A DNA stretch of 64,000 bases from the NCBI RefSeq assembly GCF_011043555.1, contig NZ_JAAKGS010000010.1, positions 62,001-126,000 on the forward strand, given 5' to 3'. A program made the position numbers and the translations under genes. Shown one piece after another: positions 19,646 through 28,852 of the stretch. Below the pieces are notes generated by a model. That model made no database searches and was not told the DNA's origin. It saw only the letters and a program-made list of their open reading frames with translations. The stretch's first letter is position 1. Each line of letters opens with the position of its first letter. The stretch comes from Sphingobacterium sp. SGR-19 (GTDB taxonomy: Bacteria > Bacteroidota > Bacteroidia > Sphingobacteriales > Sphingobacteriaceae).

Positions 19646-21325
19646 TCAAATGTTGTCACCCTGAAATTCATCCATAAAAAAGAAAAATGTAGAACCTCTT
19701 TCTTTTTCGCTTTCGACATGAATCGTCGAGCCGTGTTCTTGGAGGATTTTGGAAACGAGAAAAAGACCGATCCCAAATCCGGATATATTTTTACTAGCCT
19801 CATCATTCGCCCTGTAGAAGCGCTGGAATAATTTCCGCTGCTCAGCCTTACTGATACCGATTCCTTGATCTTGGACAAAAAGCTTTAGCTTTCCGTTGTT
19901 CCTTTCAAATCCCACTATTACCTCGCCACCGGCCGGTGAGTATTTTGTAGCGTTACTGACTAAATTGCTCAATACTTGTCCAATTTTGTCGCGATCGGCT
20001 TTGACTTTTACAAACGGATCGCCTATCACTTTTATAGTGTGCCGGACATCGAGTAAAGCAGCATCCTCCACAATCTCGTTTATCAGTGTAGAGAGTTCGA
20101 ATGTATCCATACGGAGATGGATCTTTCCTTCTTCTAACTGTGTTAGGCTTAAAAAGTCGCCTATCATCGCGATCAACTTTTTTGTTTGTACCTCGATTTT
20201 TTCCACCGTTTTTAATGCGACTGTGCGACTATTTCTGAAGTTTTTGGCCGTCACTTGTGCGTACAAAAGAATCGAAGTTAACGGCGTTTTAAGTTCATGG
20301 CTTACTATCGATATAAAATCGTTTTTACGACGTTCTTCTTGTTTTTTGTCGGTGATGTCTCGAACAATCTTGGATATGCCTATAATATCTCCTCTTTTAT
20401 TCCGTATAGGAGAGACGGTTAACGATACATCTAGCAAATTACCGCTACTTGTAAGGCGTCTGGTTTCAAAATGCTCTACAGTTTCTCCTTTTCGTAGCTT
20501 GTTTAAGATATAGTTTTCCTCGTCCAGCCTATCTTCGGGAATTATTTTTATTATAGAATTTCCGATCATTTCCTCTGCCGTGTATCCGAACATGTGTTCG
20601 GCCGCTGTGTTCCAAGTCATCACATCGCCATGCAACGACTTACTGATAATGGCATCGTAAGAGGTCTTCACGATGGCTGCTAACTGTGCTCCTTTTTCTT
20701 CCTCTCCTTTTGTGTCAGTAATGTCCGCGACTGTACCTACCGCCCGATAAGGTGTCTGATATGCGTCGAAGTAAATCGCCCCATAAAATTTTATATGCCT
20801 CTGCTGGTTATCATCGACATTCCGGATGGCACATTCAAACTCAAAACGGTGATGGTTCTCATTGTTACTGCATTGCTGCACCAGCTGTTCTAAATCTGTA
20901 ATATCTTCAGGAGAACAACGCTCCAAGATATCTCCTATGTAAAAACGGTTCTCCTTAACACCTAGCGTTCTTTTAGCGTCCTCGCAAAGGTGAATACATT
21001 TTTCGTCGAATTTCCAGTCCCAAATACCGAGCTTGGCGGCGGTTACGGCCAGTCTCAGCCGTTCTGAACTTTTTTCTAAAAGTGTAAATTGATCGCTTTT
21101 CTCTTTTTTATGATGCTCTGTTACTGCCGTATCTTCGGTGACACATTCCGTATGCTTTAGTCTTGCTTTTATAAAACTCGTCCAGCCGGCCACCTTGTTC
21201 CGAAGGTATCGGTTTTGTTCCTCAATCTCGCGCGATCTTCCTATGGATTCTTTATCTCCTTCCATGAATATAAAACAAGGTTGCGACCTGAAAAGTTTTA
21301 CACAGGCTTCTCTCCATCCCTCCAT
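19646..21325 (-). CDS. Soluble PAS-domain sensor histidine kinase
   Basis: A 559-residue kinase with no transmembrane helix. After a short polar N-terminus lie two PAS domains (about 86-205 and 212-327, the second with MTWNTAAEHMFGYTAEEMIG and followed by a PAC segment RDITDKKQEER), then HisKA with His at about 343 (SIVSHELKTPL) and an ATPase domain (NLVSNATKYSPAG, DQGIGIS, GFGIGLFLVSKI). Two PAS domains and no membrane segment suggest a cytoplasmic cue such as redox or a small ligand. It lies 83 bases downstream of a receiver-only regulator in the same direction. An internal ATG at 21265 is an alternative start. Confidence 0.93.
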   Translation of the reverse strand: MEGWREACVKLFRSQPCFIFMEGDKESIGRSREIEEQNRYLRNKVAGWTSFIKARLKHTECVTEDTAVTEHHKKEKSDQFTLLEKSSERLRLAVTAAKLGIWDWKFDEKCIHLCEDAKRTLGVKENRFYIGDILERCSPEDITDLEQLVQQCSNNENHHRFEFECAIRNVDDNQQRHIKFYGAIYFDAYQTPYRAVGTVADITDTKGEEEKGAQLAAIVKTSYDAIISKSLHGDVMTWNTAAEHMFGYTAEEMIGNSIIKIIPEDRLDEENYILNKLRKGETVEHFETRRLTSSGNLLDVSLTVSPIRNKRGDIIGISKIVRDITDKKQEERRKNDFISIVSHELKTPLTSILLYAQVTAKNFRNSRTVALKTVEKIEVQTKKLIAMIGDFLSLTQLEEGKIHLRMDTFELSTLINEIVEDAALLDVRHTIKVIGDPFVKVKADRDKIGQVLSNLVSNATKYSPAGGEVIVGFERNNGKLKLFVQDQGIGISKAEQRKLFQRFYRANDEASKNISGFGIGLFLVSKILQEHGSTIHVESEKERGSTFFFFMDEFQGDNI

Positions 21326-21408: not shown

Positions 21409-21765
21409 CTAGCTATCTTGAACCAATGATAATATCGCTTCCATATCGAATGGTTTGGGGAGAAACACATCAGCTCCTGCGTCCTTAGCAATTTCCTCGC
21501 CGTCGTAGCTAGCGGATATGCATATAATATACATATCTTGCAGGTCATCATTATTACGCGCTTCACGCATCAACTGATGTCCACTGACTTCAGGCATCCA
21601 CAGATCCACAATCAAGATATCAGGTTTTTCCCTGATTATTCTTTCAAATGCATGTGCACTACGTTGTTCCGCAATTATTTCTGCATCGGCAGACTCTAAT
21701 ATCAATTTTAATACCTCTAAAATCCCACTATCGTCATCACAAATAAAAACTTTCTTCTTGTACAT
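21409..21765 (-). CDS. Single-domain response regulator (receiver only)
   Basis: A 118-residue stand-alone receiver: acidic pocket CDDDSG (about 9-14), phosphate-accepting Asp54 in LIVDLWMPEVSG, and LPKPFD with the conserved Lys near 105. There is no output domain, so it works by protein contact or passes phosphate on. The kinase gene follows 83 bases downstream, so the two form a likely pair. Confidence 0.93.
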   Translation of the reverse strand: MYKKKVFICDDDSGILEVLKLILESADAEIIAEQRSAHAFERIIREKPDILIVDLWMPEVSGHQLMREARNNDDLQDMYIICISASYDGEEIAKDAGADVFLPKPFDMEAILSLVQDS

Positions 21766-22041: not shown

Positions 22042-22458
22042 ATGAAATATTTTATATTATGTGCTATCGCACTAGTTTCGTGTATGGGTAGCGGGAACCG
22101 GAAAGGCGACGAAACATCCTATTGTTTTATTCGAACGGACGGCACTGACCAACAGGACACAACGACGGTTAGATTCACGATAGGCGCCGATAAGCTGGAA
22201 GGCGAAATGAATTGGATACCGAAAGAGAAAGACAGTCGTAAAGGCGTGTTAGTTGGAACCATCGCCGGCGACGAAATTACGGCAATATGGCGCTATATGC
22301 AAGAAGGCATGGAAGATTCGATAGAGGTAGCGTTTAAGTTTTCGCCCAATCAATTAGCCCAAAAGCCACTAAAGGTTAATACCAATACCGGTGTACAGGA
22401 GACTGATGATGATGCAGATTACACCTTGATATACACACCTGTTGGTTGTGACGATTAG
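22042..22458 (+). CDS. Small lipoprotein of unknown function
   Basis: A 138-residue protein with a short lipoprotein signal (MKYFILCAIALVSC; lipobox ending in Cys14) and an acidic, beta-rich mature part: VRFTIGADKLEGEMNWIPKE, KGVLVGTIAGDEITAIWRYM, DSIEVAFKF. It should be anchored to the outer or inner membrane facing the periplasm. I do not know a named family. Its end converges on the receiver/NlpE-like gene (47 bases apart), which also encodes a lipoprotein domain. Confidence 0.7.
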   Translation: MKYFILCAIALVSCMGSGNRKGDETSYCFIRTDGTDQQDTTTVRFTIGADKLEGEMNWIPKEKDSRKGVLVGTIAGDEITAIWRYMQEGMEDSIEVAFKFSPNQLAQKPLKVNTNTGVQETDDDADYTLIYTPVGCDD

Positions 22459-22504: not shown

Positions 22505-23392
22505 TCACTCTTTTTTAGTATAAACGTATCGGTGTGCATCTTTACCCTCGATTATCTCGTCGTCTTTGTCTAATTGGAAGAGCTTATCCTCTCCTATTTG
22601 CAACTTTAAATCAGTGTCCGTACCTCTAAGATGGATAATCGATGCATTTTCAATCAATTTATAACGGCCGTTATCTTCTAGTTTTTCGTTTTTCCCCAGA
22701 TATTCACTGCGCATTCGAAACGTTTGGTCGTTGTTGATAACGATGGTCTGATGGATACTCTCGCAATCCTCACAAGGAAGCGTAGCTTCATAAGTACCTT
22801 CAAACTCAGATGGATTTACGGACACATCCGTTGTGGACTCATCATTTTGTGCAGCAGAATTCCCTGCCTGTCCCTGTTGTTCTGTAGGCGTACCTGTAGC
22901 ACCCTCCTGACCATTATCTCGAGATTCCGATAAGTCAACGCAGGAGGTGAACAGAAAACATAGGAAAAGAAGATAGGCTATCCCTGTTCTTAACTGTTTT
23001 TTTGATAACATGACCATCAGCACTGCCTTTGAAATAGCAGATAATAATGTTTGTACAGAACAATATTTAGAAACAAGAAATTGCCGCAGCGTCACGCCCC
23101 GCTCCCTGTCCCGGCTTTTTTCGCAATCGTCGCAGATCAGCAAAAAACTACTTTCGGGAAAAATAAGTTTTAAATCTTCTAAACCAAACGGCGACTGGTT
23201 GTGCGCTCCTTCGTAATCAACCAGGAGAATGTCCGGCTGACCGTATTGTGTTTGACACGTCTTCACGTCCTCACTCAACAACGTATCCCATAAAATCGTT
23301 ATATTGGAAGTACCCTCCTGCTCCAACAATAATCTATATGCAACCCGCAACCGCCTATTATTGCTTACGATGCCTACTGTTATCCTGTTCAT
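22505..23392 (-). CDS. Unusual frame: degenerate receiver domain joined to an NlpE-type lipoprotein
   Basis: One open frame of 295 codons with two unlike halves. Residues 1-125 look like a receiver of the LuxR/NarL type (VGIVSNNRRLRVAYRLLLEQ, ILLVDYEG with Asp59 at the phosphorylation place, Lys109) but lack the usual acidic pair and any output domain. Residues 128-295 start MLSKKQLRTG, run through a hydrophobic segment to the lipobox FTSC (Cys about 151), a Gln/Gly/Thr linker and an NlpE domain (PF04170) with LPCEDCESI. Inner ATGs at 23017 and 23011 would produce a normal exported lipoprotein, so it may be two genes in one frame, or a fusion. NlpE senses envelope stress in enterobacteria. 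It follows the two cytidylyltransferase genes by 43 bases. Confidence 0.75.
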   Translation of the reverse strand: MNRITVGIVSNNRRLRVAYRLLLEQEGTSNITILWDTLLSEDVKTCQTQYGQPDILLVDYEGAHNQSPFGLEDLKLIFPESSFLLICDDCEKSRDRERGVTLRQFLVSKYCSVQTLLSAISKAVLMVMLSKKQLRTGIAYLLFLCFLFTSCVDLSESRDNGQEGATGTPTEQQGQAGNSAAQNDESTTDVSVNPSEFEGTYEATLPCEDCESIHQTIVINNDQTFRMRSEYLGKNEKLEDNGRYKLIENASIIHLRGTDTDLKLQIGEDKLFQLDKDDEIIEGKDAHRYVYTKKE

Positions 23393-23435
23393 ATCTCTGT
23401 ATTTAAAAATTTTAGTATTCTTAATTACAGACCAA

Positions 23436-23873
23436 CTAGTTAATTGTTTTAACCAGCTGCTCTTTCGTAAGTTCTTTCTCCGTCACCACCTTTCGTAGCC
23501 TATCACTTGTAAACCGATGCTTACGTTTTGTATAATATAATTCGATCCCCTCTTGTAAACAATAATCTTTTCCCGGAAAATGGGATGGCATACCTTCTAC
23601 AAACCGGATATCGATTGGAAGGGACTGCAACATATCCATTAGTTCTTCGTCCGAACCATATGGGATGATTTCATCTACGTATCGACAACCTTCCAGTTTA
23701 ATGAAACGCTCTACGACGGTTTGTGCCGGATGCGAACTGCTTTCATCTCGCTCCTGGGTATCGGTTTTCAACCCAACAATTAGATGGTCGCAGTGCCGCT
23801 TTGCCTCCTCCAACATGACGAGATGACCTAGATGTAAAAGATCAAATTCGCCAAAAATAATTCCTACCTTCAT
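23436..23873 (-). CDS. Cytidylyltransferase-like protein (TagD/nucleotidyltransferase fold), diverged copy
   Basis: A 145-residue protein of the cytidylyltransferase-like family (PF01467). The opening VGIIFGEFDLLHLGHLVMLEEAK carries the HxGH nucleotide-binding motif (about 15-18), and KHRFTSDRLRK near the end stands where the second substrate motif (ISTTxIxxRI in TagD) is found. A middle segment is RFVEGMPSHFPGKDY, where TagD-like enzymes and the neighbouring paralogue have GDEY, so this copy has probably lost or changed part of the substrate pocket. Family members couple CTP to glycerol 3-phosphate or other phosphates. It lies 48 bases after its paralogue, likely on one mRNA. Confidence 0.85.
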   Translation of the reverse strand: MKVGIIFGEFDLLHLGHLVMLEEAKRHCDHLIVGLKTDTQERDESSSHPAQTVVERFIKLEGCRYVDEIIPYGSDEELMDMLQSLPIDIRFVEGMPSHFPGKDYCLQEGIELYYTKRKHRFTSDRLRKVVTEKELTKEQLVKTIN

Positions 23874-23921
23874 ATTTTTTCTGTTAACGTTTTATTACTT
23901 TCTCTACGCTACTCCAGCGCC

Positions 23922-24404
23922 TTATGCATTTAGCCGATGTAATGGCAACTCGATGTTTTCTTTCAGATGAACAATCGAAACCGATTCCTCATGCTGCTTT
24001 TCTGCTATAATTTTGCGTAACGACGAACTAGAGAACCGATTCTCCCTACGATTAAAATAAAGCTCGATACCTTTTTCTTCACAGTACTTCCGTCCCGTAA
24101 AATTCTTGTCCTTGTACTCGTCCCCCAAAATACGTACGTGGATTTTATAGGAACGAAGTATATCTTCCAAATCCTGTTCCGTAGCATATGGAATGATTTT
24201 ATCGACGTGTTTACAACCTCGCAATTGCATGTACCGCTCAAACACGGTTTGCGTAGGTTTATTTTTTTCCGGACGGTCTAATGTGGGATCAGTCTGCACA
24301 CCGCAGATAAGAAAGTCACACTGTTCTTTAGCGTCTTCAAGCATTTTAATGTGTCCTGCATGTAATAAATCAAAGGCAGAAAAAGTTATTCCTATTTTCA
24401 TCAT
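23922..24404 (-). CDS. Cytidylyltransferase-like protein (glycerol-3-phosphate cytidylyltransferase type)
   Basis: A 160-residue nucleotidyltransferase: IGITFSAFDLLHAGHIKMLEDAK carries HAGH (about 15-18), followed by GVQTDPTLDR, the GCKHVDKIIPYAT segment, ILGDEYKDKNFTGRKYCEE and RFSSSSLRK. These correspond to the TagD-type order of motifs. The best-known reaction of this group is CTP plus glycerol 3-phosphate giving CDP-glycerol, but no CDP-glycerol-using transferase lies nearby. It is the first of three genes on the minus strand; the next is a diverged paralogue. Translation probably starts at the second of two adjacent ATGs. Confidence 0.88.
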   Translation of the reverse strand: MMKIGITFSAFDLLHAGHIKMLEDAKEQCDFLICGVQTDPTLDRPEKNKPTQTVFERYMQLRGCKHVDKIIPYATEQDLEDILRSYKIHVRILGDEYKDKNFTGRKYCEEKGIELYFNRRENRFSSSSLRKIIAEKQHEESVSIVHLKENIELPLHRLNA

Positions 24405-24766: not shown

Positions 24767-24811
24767 GTGTCTTCTTTATTTCAGGATAATTTTATTTTTA
24801 GCGAAACGATA

Positions 24812-27800
24812 ATGGACATACCACGCGGCACGTACCGTATCCAGTTTAACGACAAGTTCACTTTTCAGCATCTCGGACAGATCGTGGACTATCTGCATAA
24901 CTTGGGTGTTGACACGGTTTATGCTTCTCCTATCTTCCAAGCTACACCGGGTAGTGTGCACGGCTATGATGGAACCGATCCGAACAATACCAACCCCGAA
25001 ATAGGGACTTTAGATCAACTGATAGACCTCAAAACACAGCTCACCCGACTTGGTATTAAGTGGCTGCAGGACATCGTTCCCAATCACATGGCATTTCATC
25101 ACGAAAACCGGTGGCTTATGGACGTGTTGGAATATGGGGATTTATCTCCGTATAGTACCTATTTCGACACGGCACACCACGGTGTATTATTTAAAAAAGG
25201 CAAGCTAATGGTCCCTATTCTAGGCAAGGGTCTCATTGATACCGTGCAATCGGATGAAATTAAGGTCGTGCTTGACAATCAACGGTTCTATTTTACTTAT
25301 TTTGATTGGCAACTTCCAATTACCCCTACTTGTTATGACGAAATCAACCAATGCCTAGCAAACATCAATGACGATAAGGAAAAAATATTAGATATATTAT
25401 CCAGACAACATTATCAACTTTGTCACTGGACCGAAACAGATCAGCGCATAAATTATCGACGTTTCTTTACCATCAATGGGTTGATTTGTTTGAATGTACA
25501 GGATGAGGATGTGTTCAAAGGCGTACATCAATTTGTGAGAGAGCTCCTTGCTAAAAAAATTGTGGATGGCCTTCGGATCGATCATATCGATGGGCTTCAC
25601 AATCCAACTAAATATTTAAGAGATCTGCGAAACATGTGCGGGACGGACACCTATATCGTTGCAGAAAAGATTTTAGAACAAGGGGAGAACCTTCCGCTCA
25701 ACTGGTCCATCCAAGGTACCACAGGCTACGATTTTTTAGCGCTGTGTAATAATGTTTGTACAGACAACGGCAACGAGAAACTTCTTACCGAATTTTACGA
25801 TGGGTTTATCGGGAAGTGTATCTCCATTGCAGAATCGCAGATAGAGAAGAAAAGAGCTATTCTAGCTCAACACATGCAGGGAGAAATTGATAACTTATGT
25901 CAATTATTTTTGGATCTGGGGCTTGATCTTGGTAACCCTCTTATCGCTAGAGAGGAACTTCGATCGGGTATCGAGGCGTTCTTGGTATATTTTCCGATAT
26001 ACCGCCTTTACGAGGAGAGCTTCCCATTCCCGGTGGAAGCTTATGAAACGATAGCAGCTATTTTCGATGCGATACTGCAGAAAGAACCGGATAATGTTCA
26101 AGGAACGGAAAGGCTACGAGATGTCATGAAGCGGGCGCAGTACGAGCCAGACCACGCCTATCGCAAAAACGCAATGGTTTTCTTCCAACGTTGTATGCAA
26201 TTTACAGGTCCCGTAATGGCTAAGGGTGTCGAGGACACACTCATGTATACCTACAATCGATTCATTGGCCATAACGAAGTTGGTGATCATCCTGCAAATT
26301 TTGGTGTTAGCGTGGCCACGTTCCATGATGCGATGCAGAAACGACAAATGCATTGGCCTTCTACACTCAACGCCACAGCAACGCACGACACCAAACGGGG
26401 CGAGGATGCAAGGGCTCGTCTGTTGGTACTGACGGCCTGGCCCGAAGCCTGGATAGAACAGCTTAATACCTGGCAAAAAATCGTTAAAGAACATTACGAG
26501 GGAGATCTACCACATGCTAACGATATTTACGCTATCTATCAAGCGATTTTTGGTTCTTACCCGATGCCTGGCTGCTCGGACGATGGCTTCGAGGACCGGT
26601 TTTTAAATTACCTGACAAAGTACTTACGAGAAGGGAAAGAGCATTCGGCGTGGGCAGACCCGGACGAACGCTATGAGCAGCGTACCCAGCGTTTTGCTCA
26701 ATTTCTATTAGATAAGGAACGTCCTTTCTACCCGGTTTTCCATACTTATTTAAAAGGTATGGTAGATTTCGGCATCATGAATTCGCTAGCGCAGTTGTTA
26801 TTAAAACTCACCTGCCCGGGCGTACCGGACATATATCAAGGGACGGAACTCTGGGATTTGAGTTTTGTGGATCCAGACAACAGACGACGAGTTGATTATG
26901 CTATCCGGCAGCAATATCTACAGGAAATCGACGAGTTAGCCAACGATAATGTTCTGCCGATACTTTGGAAAGAGCGGTATAACGGCAAGATCAAGCTTTG
27001 GTTAATGAAAACTCTGCTCGCTATCCGCAATAAATACAGCTCGATTTTTACAAAAGGCGAATACGTCCCGTTAGAGGTAAAAGGAAAATACCACGAGCAT
27101 ATCTTAGCTTTTGCCCGAAACCATAAAGACGAGTGGTTGGTAGTTGTTGTACCTCTCCATCTGGCAGCCATTGAGGAACTACGAAACCGCGTAGTACAGG
27201 GTTTCGATTGGCAAGACACGACCGTTGTTTTACCAAACAGCAAACCGGTGCAATGGCGTCACCTGTTATCCCCGATCGAAGACGAGGGTACAACGTTAGC
27301 AATTTCGTCTGTATTTAAGGATTATCCGCTGGCTGTTATTCGTTATAGCAAACCACCGAATCCCAGGAGCGCGGGCGTGTTACTACATATTACTTCGCTG
27401 CCTTCACGTTCTGGTATCGGCGATCTCGGCCCAGGCGCATATGATTTCGTTCAATTCTTGGAATCTAGCGGACAACGTTGGTGGCAAATACTACCCCTAG
27501 GCCCCACCTCTCAACCCCAATGCCATTCTCCCTATAGCACCCGGAGTGCCATGGCTGGCAACCCCTTATTAATAAGCTTGGAGGCATTAGCAGATGAAGG
27601 TTTGTTAACGCAAGAAGAACTGGAAATAGCTACTATGGATGATAGAGGTATGCCGCTTGATTTCGCAAAGGTCGAGTCTATAAAAAGAGCGGGGCTACAC
27701 ATCGCCTTTGAACGGGCGGATCCTGCCAACGACCCGAATTTTAAAACTTTTTGTGCGGAAGAAGGCTATTGGCTGGATGATTACGCCTTATTTGTTGTTT

Positions 27801-28852
27801 TGCACGACACCTTCTCGGACGCTCCGTGGTATGCTTGGCCGGAGCGGTTTAAATCGCGTCATCCACAAGCACTAGCCCAATTTGAAGCTGAACATCATAA
27901 GCAACTTCTCGAAGAAAAATGGACGCAGTACACTTTCTTTAGGCAGTGGAAAAAACTGAAAACGTATTGCGAAGAATGTGGCGTCCGGATCTTAGGTGAT
28001 GTACCCATGTACGTGGGTTACGACTCGGCGGATGTTTGGGCACATCCACACTTATTTTCGTTAGCGTCGGACGGAAGTCTCCAATCGGTAGCCGGGGTGC
28101 CACCGGATTACTTCAATGCGGAAGGCCAGCTCTGGGGTATGCCGGTATATAACTGGCAGGCACTTGAACGGGATAACTATACATGGTGGATGTTAAGATT
28201 GGCCCGTAATTGCAAGCTTTTTGATATGGTCCGGCTTGATCATTTTAGGGCGTTCGCGGCATATTGGGAGGTTTCTGTCCAAGACAAGACGGCACAAAAT
28301 GGCCAGTGGAGACCCGGCCCGGGAAAAGATTTTTTCACGCGGGCAAGAGCTGAATTGGGCAAACTCCCCTTTATTGTAGAAGATCTGGGCGACATCGACG
28401 ACGCGGTCTATGAACTGCGGGACGCTTTCCAACTTCCTGGAACTAAGGTTCTGCAATTTGCATTTGGCGACAATATGGCGTCGTCACCTCATATTCCACA
28501 CCATTATACTCGAAATTTCTTCGCCTATACGGGAACACACGACAACAATACTATTTTGGGCTGGTTTAACGAAGAGATTGACGATGCGGCTAAGGAAAGG
28601 CTTTCACAATATACATCTATTGCTGCCGACCAAATAAACATTGCCGATATCATGCTGAAGATGGCGTATGCCTCGGTAGCAGATACGGTCATCGTACCCT
28701 TGCAAGATATTTTATCCCTTCCGGGAACACACCGTATGAATAACCCAGCGAGCACAAGCGGAAACTGGCAGTGGCGGGCACCACACGATGCTTTTGGTGA
28801 GCATGTTAAAACAAAATTACGTCACTATATGGAATTATACGATCGGATATGA
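24812..28852 (+). CDS. treY-malQ: TreY-MalQ fusion: maltooligosyltrehalose synthase joined to 4-alpha-glucanotransferase
   Basis: A 1346-residue two-domain protein. Residues 1 to about 848 are TreY (GH13): MDIPRGTYRIQFNDKFTF, YASPIFQATPGSVHGYDGTDP, DIVPNHMA, LRIDHIDGLHNP with the nucleophile Asp, and IVAEKILEQGE with the acid. This enzyme turns the reducing end of a maltodextrin into a trehalose linkage. From about residue 850 (AGVLLHITSLPSRSGIGDLGPGA) MalQ (GH77) begins, with MVRLDHFRAFA, PFIVEDLGDID and YTGTHDNNT. It would lengthen short maltodextrins into good TreY substrates. A GTG at 24767 with AGGAG before it is a second possible start, but the family begins at the ATG. First of four genes in the operon. 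Confidence 0.95.
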   Translation: MDIPRGTYRIQFNDKFTFQHLGQIVDYLHNLGVDTVYASPIFQATPGSVHGYDGTDPNNTNPEIGTLDQLIDLKTQLTRLGIKWLQDIVPNHMAFHHENRWLMDVLEYGDLSPYSTYFDTAHHGVLFKKGKLMVPILGKGLIDTVQSDEIKVVLDNQRFYFTYFDWQLPITPTCYDEINQCLANINDDKEKILDILSRQHYQLCHWTETDQRINYRRFFTINGLICLNVQDEDVFKGVHQFVRELLAKKIVDGLRIDHIDGLHNPTKYLRDLRNMCGTDTYIVAEKILEQGENLPLNWSIQGTTGYDFLALCNNVCTDNGNEKLLTEFYDGFIGKCISIAESQIEKKRAILAQHMQGEIDNLCQLFLDLGLDLGNPLIAREELRSGIEAFLVYFPIYRLYEESFPFPVEAYETIAAIFDAILQKEPDNVQGTERLRDVMKRAQYEPDHAYRKNAMVFFQRCMQFTGPVMAKGVEDTLMYTYNRFIGHNEVGDHPANFGVSVATFHDAMQKRQMHWPSTLNATATHDTKRGEDARARLLVLTAWPEAWIEQLNTWQKIVKEHYEGDLPHANDIYAIYQAIFGSYPMPGCSDDGFEDRFLNYLTKYLREGKEHSAWADPDERYEQRTQRFAQFLLDKERPFYPVFHTYLKGMVDFGIMNSLAQLLLKLTCPGVPDIYQGTELWDLSFVDPDNRRRVDYAIRQQYLQEIDELANDNVLPILWKERYNGKIKLWLMKTLLAIRNKYSSIFTKGEYVPLEVKGKYHEHILAFARNHKDEWLVVVVPLHLAAIEELRNRVVQGFDWQDTTVVLPNSKPVQWRHLLSPIEDEGTTLAISSVFKDYPLAVIRYSKPPNPRSAGVLLHITSLPSRSGIGDLGPGAYDFVQFLESSGQRWWQILPLGPTSQPQCHSPYSTRSAMAGNPLLISLEALADEGLLTQEELEIATMDDRGMPLDFAKVESIKRAGLHIAFERADPANDPNFKTFCAEEGYWLDDYALFVVLHDTFSDAPWYAWPERFKSRHPQALAQFEAEHHKQLLEEKWTQYTFFRQWKKLKTYCEECGVRILGDVPMYVGYDSADVWAHPHLFSLASDGSLQSVAGVPPDYFNAEGQLWGMPVYNWQALERDNYTWWMLRLARNCKLFDMVRLDHFRAFAAYWEVSVQDKTAQNGQWRPGPGKDFFTRARAELGKLPFIVEDLGDIDDAVYELRDAFQLPGTKVLQFAFGDNMASSPHIPHHYTRNFFAYTGTHDNNTILGWFNEEIDDAAKERLSQYTSIAADQINIADIMLKMAYASVADTVIVPLQDILSLPGTHRMNNPASTSGNWQWRAPHDAFGEHVKTKLRHYMELYDRI

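Follow-up and report, generated by a model that had tools for sequence, protein, structure and literature searches.

A receiver-like half and an NlpE-type lipoprotein share one open reading frame in Sphingobacterium sp. SGR-19, probably through an in-frame deletion

Background

The lipoprotein NlpE of E. coli, also called CutF (structures 2z4h and 2z4i), possesses an N-terminal domain with a CxxC motif. Receivers of the NarL/FixJ type, such as those of RcsB, VraR, DesR and NarL, belong to response regulators with a helix-turn-helix (HTH) output. In regulators of the ToxR/CadC type, a cytoplasmic N-terminal half is connected by one membrane segment to a periplasmic C-terminal half. Enterococcal sex pheromones are cut from the signal peptides of lipoproteins, and the released piece is functional by itself.

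Here we describe a gene of Sphingobacterium sp. SGR-19 that touches on all of these systems. In it, a cytoplasmic protein and an exported one are connected through a lipobox that is still intact. With E. coli NlpE the fusion shares the N-terminal domain, the CxxC motif and the lipoprotein character, the latter by prediction; it differs in that NlpE_C is missing and that it stays below the cut-off of the E. coli-type equivalog, and activation of Cpx is not to be assumed. The N-terminal half shares a predicted fold and distant homology with the NarL/FixJ receivers but, unlike these regulators, has no HTH output and carries Ser/Asn in place of the acidic pair. The topology of ToxR/CadC would be shared as well, but the segment in the fusion is a lipoprotein signal. 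Whereas the sex pheromones are short peptides, the front piece of the fusion is a folded domain, ~130 residues in length. S. haloxyli (L065) and S. gobiense (L066) have an adjacent pair of the same genes in the same order and with the same neighbours, with identities of 71% over the N-terminal half and 71–73% over the NlpE half. This pair differs from the fusion by a stop codon, a gap of 54–55 nt and a separate nlpE start. The fusion offers a natural experiment on whether lipoprotein signals still work behind a folded domain.

Methods

The window is the stretch of 64,000 nucleotides of contig NZ_JAAKGS010000010.1 (positions 62,001 to 126,000) on which all coordinates given here are counted. 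The species is represented by one genome, a draft assembly of 32 contigs. Orthologues were searched in a set of 93 Sphingobacterium genomes, SGR-19 included. Translation starts were evaluated with a start-context model based on 464 kb of the genome (the window plus 20 further stretches) containing 238 genes of at least 200 aa. During fitting, 32 starts were moved, and the assigned starts were compared with 2429 internal ATGs.

Results and discussion

Two unlike halves in one frame

The fused frame (Table 1) comprises 325 codons from stop to stop. In this single open reading frame a receiver-like half, a lipoprotein signal and an NlpE domain follow each other. The first-pass annotation, made from the sequence of the window, had placed a receiver-like half and an NlpE-type lipoprotein in one open frame, and this is confirmed.

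Table 1. Features of the fusion locus in the window
Feature	Positions	Strand	Remarks
PAS histidine kinase	19646..21325	minus	
Single-domain response regulator, ordinary receiver	21409..21765	minus	PF00072, 70.6 bits
Conserved gene for a small predicted lipoprotein, facing the fusion	22042..22458	plus	
Fused open reading frame, 295 aa	22505..23392	minus	ATG to TGA, uninterrupted
NlpE N-terminal domain, aa 201–283	22544..22792	minus	PF04170; CxxC = LPCEDC
Hydrophobic stretch and lipobox, aa 138–151, Cys151	22940..22981	minus	Aligned with the signals of S. haloxyli and S. gobiense
Putative deletion junction	22973..22985	minus	Last receiver codons fused to the nlpE signal at its hydrophobic core
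Receiver-like half, aa 1 to about 136–139	22985..23392	minus	Orthologue of stand-alone genes of 138–146 aa
Inner ATG	23009..23011	minus	S. chuzhouense and S. gobiense already have an internal Met codon here; poor context
Inner ATG	23015..23017	minus	TCG or TCA in S. chuzhouense, S. gobiense and S. haloxyli; poor context
Cytidylyltransferase-like gene, upstream, conserved	23436..23873	minus	PF01467
Second cytidylyltransferase-like gene, upstream, conserved	23922..24404	minus	PF01467

The C-terminal half matched PF04170 with 71.9 bits (cut-off 22). Among its solved relatives are the Shewanella lipoprotein 3lhn (E 4.1e-15), in which LPCASC stands in register with LPCEDC of the fusion, and E. coli CutF/NlpE 2z4h (E 2.5e-4). 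The E. coli-type NlpE equivalog of NCBIfam, NF007814, gave 31.7 bits against a cut-off of 243, and no Pfam match to NlpE_C was found in the fusion. The predicted lipoprotein signal reads KKQLRTG-IAYLLFLCFLF-TSC, with the cysteine at aa 151, and its lipobox FTSC aligns with FSAC of S. haloxyli and S. gobiense. Cys151 in its lipobox and the PF04170 match uphold the order proposed previously, a lipoprotein signal and then an NlpE domain. The hydrophobic stretch (aa 138–148) has a core of just ~11–12 residues, as is typical of signal peptides, and would have to act behind a tail of 137 residues, which speaks against its use as an internal signal. Lysines and an arginine precede it and mostly acidic charges follow past Cys151.

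The N-terminal half is far more diverged. A search with aa 1–125 yielded no Pfam match up to an E-value of 1, PF00072 included, and in the three stand-alone relatives scanned (L035, L042, L046) PF00072 was not found above the cut-off. The best match to a profile of a solved structure was the receiver 3jte with E 0.031, followed by unrelated proteins at 0.08–0.8. A profile of 11 relatives matched the receiver part of the LuxR-type protein L055 at 94.4% over aa 4–123 and the ordinary receiver at 21412–21765 at 5.5%. The AlphaFold2 model of the whole fusion was weak (mean pLDDT 57.8, pTM 0.44), with ten-residue blocks at pLDDT 51–87 over aa 1–130 and 67–87 over the first 90 residues; strands and helices alternate in the N-terminal half, as in receivers. 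When this model was used in Foldseek, 3lhn ranked first, presumably due to the NlpE part, and the receivers of RcsB, DesR, VraR and NarL were among the best matches. Profile comparison with the LuxR-type regulator and the predicted fold thus indicate that the N-terminal half is a degenerate receiver.

The degeneration concerns the stretch after strand 1, where the fusion has VSNNRR and the LuxR-type homologue IDRDE. These positions, which we take to be those of the acidic pair for Mg2+, have changed to Ser/Asn. Asp59, the assumed phospho-acceptor, is kept in all 11 aligned rows, and Lys109, presumably the conserved receiver lysine, is nearly invariant. Judged from these residues, ordinary phosphorylation of the degenerate receiver appears doubtful.

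We considered and rejected a truncated LuxR regulator as the origin of this half, for its seven close orthologues are stand-alone proteins of 138–146 aa with no HTH. LuxR-type proteins of about 200 aa exist elsewhere in the genus and form a group separate from the stand-alone receivers; GerE was confirmed by Pfam in L053 and L055, the two that were tested, and the other proteins of ~200 aa were judged by eye. The missing output domain is best read as the ancestral state of the receiver half, with no sign of truncation. The earlier description of a receiver half without output domain therefore holds in that the half is receiver-like and has no HTH, but the receiver is degenerate and was output-less ancestrally.

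The fusion is seen in one genome

The N-terminal half had 35 matches in 28 of the 93 Sphingobacterium genomes. Close orthologues with 54–87% identity occur in seven other genomes, namely those of S. chuzhouense (87%), S. haloxyli (71%), S. gobiense (71%), S. phlebotomi (66%), S. corticibacterium (66%), S. micropteri (65%) and Sphingobacterium sp. FBM7-1 (54%). In all seven the orthologue is a separate gene with its own stop, which answers in the negative the query whether relatives have the halves joined (0/7). The S. haloxyli frame counts 139 aa from the aligned ATG and 150 aa from an earlier one. The frames of the 34 other receiver-like matches span 128–255 codons, and none of the 29 that were read, the five outside being weak matches, continues into an NlpE domain.

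The search was also made from the side of NlpE. PF04170 is present in 93/93 genomes of the genus and in 66/395 genomes of the class. No receiver was found upstream of NlpE in 13 longer frames, 10 from the class and three from the genus, among the matches listed, and the Pfam scan of the 10 class frames returned NlpE, NlpE_C, META or DUF4377 only. The accessible portions of the literature on NlpE in Bacteroidetes and on NlpE together with receivers contained no such fusion. There is no other receiver-NlpE fusion among the frames read. This is a species-level fusion, seen in 1/93 Sphingobacterium genomes, and the joining was probably a lineage-specific accident in one Sphingobacterium species. 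Fusion of genes by deletion is an ordinary type of event; the pairing of a cytoplasmic with an exported protein is unusual.

A probable in-frame deletion as the origin

The gene order of the window recurs in S. haloxyli and S. gobiense: the two cytidylyltransferase-like genes and the receiver-like gene, then nlpE, the lipoprotein gene that faces it, the response regulator and finally the kinase. In the alignment of the fusion with S. haloxyli, 85 columns are missing, corresponding to the stop codon, the gap and the nlpE ATG with the first codons; compared with S. gobiense, roughly 105 bp are missing (by eye). By eye, a Tyr codon has taken the place of the former stop. The receiver-like protein, which ends with MLSKRQVRTGIV in S. 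chuzhouense, ends with MLSKKQLRTGIA in the fusion. The separate adjacent genes with the same neighbours in two relatives support a deletion origin well, and the fusion very probably arose by an in-frame deletion that joined the two genes. In an ancestor of this species, such a deletion would have removed the receiver stop, the short gap and the nlpE start with its first codons, leaving both genes in one frame.

The receiver and NlpE halves are about equally distant from S. haloxyli and S. gobiense (dN 0.20–0.21 and 0.17), as expected if both adjoined in the common ancestor. Recombination of halves from two sources is not needed to explain such similar divergence.

No direct repeat of at least 12 nt flanks the junction in the window, nor is there one in the corresponding kilobase of S. 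haloxyli. The sole 12-nt repeat pair, at 22898 and 23309, is unrelated to the junction, and an imperfect 8-nt direct repeat pair was noticed by eye in S. haloxyli. A deletion between short direct repeats is not claimed. Within the window, the junction sequence is unique. An assembly error, with the genes separate in the real genome, would be conceivable for a single draft genome of 32 contigs, but the short length of the missing stretch and the lack of a flanking direct repeat of at least 12 nt make it extremely improbable.

The relative nearest by the N-terminal half, S. chuzhouense, has no nlpE at this place, which weakens the reconstruction of the spacer that this lineage had before the deletion. 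Instead, about 6 kb of other genes, photolyase-, Idi- and carotenoid-like by eye, are located between its receiver-like gene and the lipoprotein gene. Its Idi-like protein has a 64% match in the SGR-19 genome, at another place. S. corticibacterium, too, has a similar stretch of ~6 kb in the place of nlpE; the stretches of these two species are L107:4033-10006 and L108:4092-10061.

The first-pass annotation had offered a recent in-frame deletion as one possibility, and its deletion part stands, with separate adjacent genes in S. haloxyli and S. gobiense. It had also named a finding that would point to a deletion or an assembly error: relatives with a complete LuxR-type regulator and an NlpE gene, divided by a stop. 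Separate genes with a stop between them do exist in the relatives, but instead of the LuxR-type regulator there is a stand-alone receiver that lacks the HTH.

Compared with S. chuzhouense, the N-terminal half gave dN 0.073 and dS 0.98 (ratio 0.074); synonymous sites were saturated in the comparisons with S. haloxyli and S. gobiense. Relative-rate counts of the fusion versus S. chuzhouense with four outgroups were 3/5, 5/5, 5/4 and 4/4, and in these small counts no faster evolution of the N-terminal half of the fusion was seen. Decay of the fusion was thus detected neither by dN/dS nor by relative rates. The deletion is not dated by these measures, so they cannot show selection on the fused protein, and the absence of decay may reflect the time before the deletion. 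The receiver tree (support 0.897) and the tree of all three proteins (0.937) pair the fusion with S. chuzhouense, but this pairing is not seen in a tree built from the two cytidylyltransferase-like proteins; the phylogeny of the locus is weak.

A probable single translation start

The two inner ATGs to which attention had been drawn, at 23017 and 23011, are present and in frame. They had been proposed to give a second, exported product, meaning that a full-length protein from 23392 and a short pre-lipoprotein from 23017 or 23011 would be made side by side. Three relatives have TCG or TCA where the fusion has the ATG at 23017, an acceptable signal peptide can be read from this ATG, AAAGG is located 8 nt upstream, and adenines precede 23017 at −12 and −13 and 23011 at −6 and −13. 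However, AAAGG also occurs within the coding sequence of S. chuzhouense, and mRNAs of Bacteroidetes lack Shine-Dalgarno sequences and use upstream adenines (PMC6847099). Our start model favours upstream A and has no G peak, which is consistent with this published absence of Shine-Dalgarno sequences.

The start at 23392 scored 8.12, with 86% of the 238 assigned starts at or below this value, in a model that was fitted on its own picks and for whose training set the fusion gene was eligible. The ATG at 23017 scored −3.77 (1.7% of the assigned starts are as low and 43% of the internal ATGs as high) and the ATG at 23011 scored −5.27 (1.3% and 60%, respectively). Both contexts resemble those of internal methionines; the nlpE starts of S. 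haloxyli (3.07) and S. gobiense (3.52) score much higher. The RNA is also more folded at the inner ATGs, with −7.4 kcal/mol at both compared with −0.3 kcal/mol at the main start, −4.0 kcal/mol at the nlpE start of S. haloxyli and −0.3 kcal/mol at that of S. gobiense. The main start has G at −3 and A at −6 and −12. Neither inner ATG has A at −3, but this base does not discriminate, because G stands at −3 of both the main start and the nlpE start of S. haloxyli. The computed start contexts point to 23392 as most likely the only translation start; they disfavour a second product from the inner ATGs, which in our estimation is quite improbable.

Possible fates of the fused protein

We consider it likely that a deletion created the fusion, that it is translated from the single start at 23392, and that an internal signal sends the NlpE domain to the periplasm while the receiver stays in the cytoplasm. 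The residues MLSKKQLRTGIA, ahead of the hydrophobic core of nlpE, would serve as the n-region of the signal. This positively charged region, the hydrophobic core and the lipobox would together act as an internal signal, upon which the chain would insert in the orientation just given. Subsequent action of Lgt and signal peptidase II may sever the chain before Cys151, resulting in two products; we rate such cleavage as less likely than not. Equally tentative is the picture of a two-compartment polyprotein, in which the receiver would be the front of an oversized lipoprotein signal and a membrane-tethered receiver and a lipidated NlpE would be made 1:1. If uncut, the whole fusion would be a single-pass protein of the inner membrane. 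If the signal fails behind the folded domain, the receiver half would be kept and this copy of NlpE lost. Hence, the fused gene may have kept the production of both proteins or may have lost it.

The last of these outcomes is a rival explanation in its own right: behind the folded domain of 137 residues, the NlpE half would not be exported and would stay in the cytoplasm or be degraded. The original nlpE start and n-region are gone, and in 7/9 named relatives no nlpE was found within the fetched 6 kb downstream of the receiver gene. Loss of export would be tolerated because of two other NlpE genes (C31 and C11) in the SGR-19 genome. Yet the frame, the CxxC motif and the lipobox are intact, there is no stop, the identity to S. 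haloxyli and S. gobiense amounts to 71–73%, the new n-region is positive, and in hydrophobicity the stretch behind it slightly exceeds its counterparts in these two species. Therefore, an unexported NlpE half seems rather unlikely to us. The odds of the favoured explanation and of its rivals overlap, because the unexported NlpE half and the two translation starts share the deletion origin with it.

A one-protein signalling device is another rival. Here the periplasmic NlpE domain would sense the state of the envelope and signal through the membrane segment to the cytoplasmic receiver, similar to ToxR/CadC. The charges on either side of the hydrophobic stretch fit this orientation, both halves are intact, and a histidine kinase and a response regulator are encoded nearby. 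The latter two are, however, also near the unfused genes of S. haloxyli and S. gobiense. Taken as a single membrane span of the ToxR/CadC kind, the hydrophobic core is ~11–12 residues long and ends in a lipobox, which invites cleavage. Pfam revealed no HTH or other DNA-binding family in the fusion, and the fold of the model is receiver-like, unlike ToxR/CadC. With the fusion restricted to 1/93 genomes and a receiver that has neither the acidic pair nor an output domain, such a device is very improbable, and the novel link between envelope sensing and phosphorelay signalling that had been envisaged finds no support.

A conserved group around the receiver-like gene

The fusion led to a conserved group in Sphingobacterium, the stand-alone degenerate receivers by cytidylyltransferase-like genes. 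At least one cytidylyltransferase-like gene was present in the flank of 20 of the 30 receiver-like loci fetched, SGR-19 included. From this frequency, a degenerate receiver standing alone seems to have belonged to this gene group for a long time. Stand-alone degenerate receivers near one or two such genes were observed at L034-L051, L054 and L060; the corresponding part of the window is 23012–24404.

On the other side of the fusion, the facing lipoprotein gene is present in 6/7 close genomes; its product had no Pfam match over the cut-off and no match in NCBIfam. The interval of the response regulator and the kinase is about 2 kb longer in S. haloxyli and S. gobiense than in the window. Upstream of the cytidylyltransferase-like genes, positions 24767–28852 are taken up by one frame of ~1350 aa that has, by eye, the look of a maltooligosyl-trehalose synthase plus a 4-alpha-glucanotransferase, and its counterpart is a single frame of 1345–1399 aa at the loci of 8/9 named relatives.
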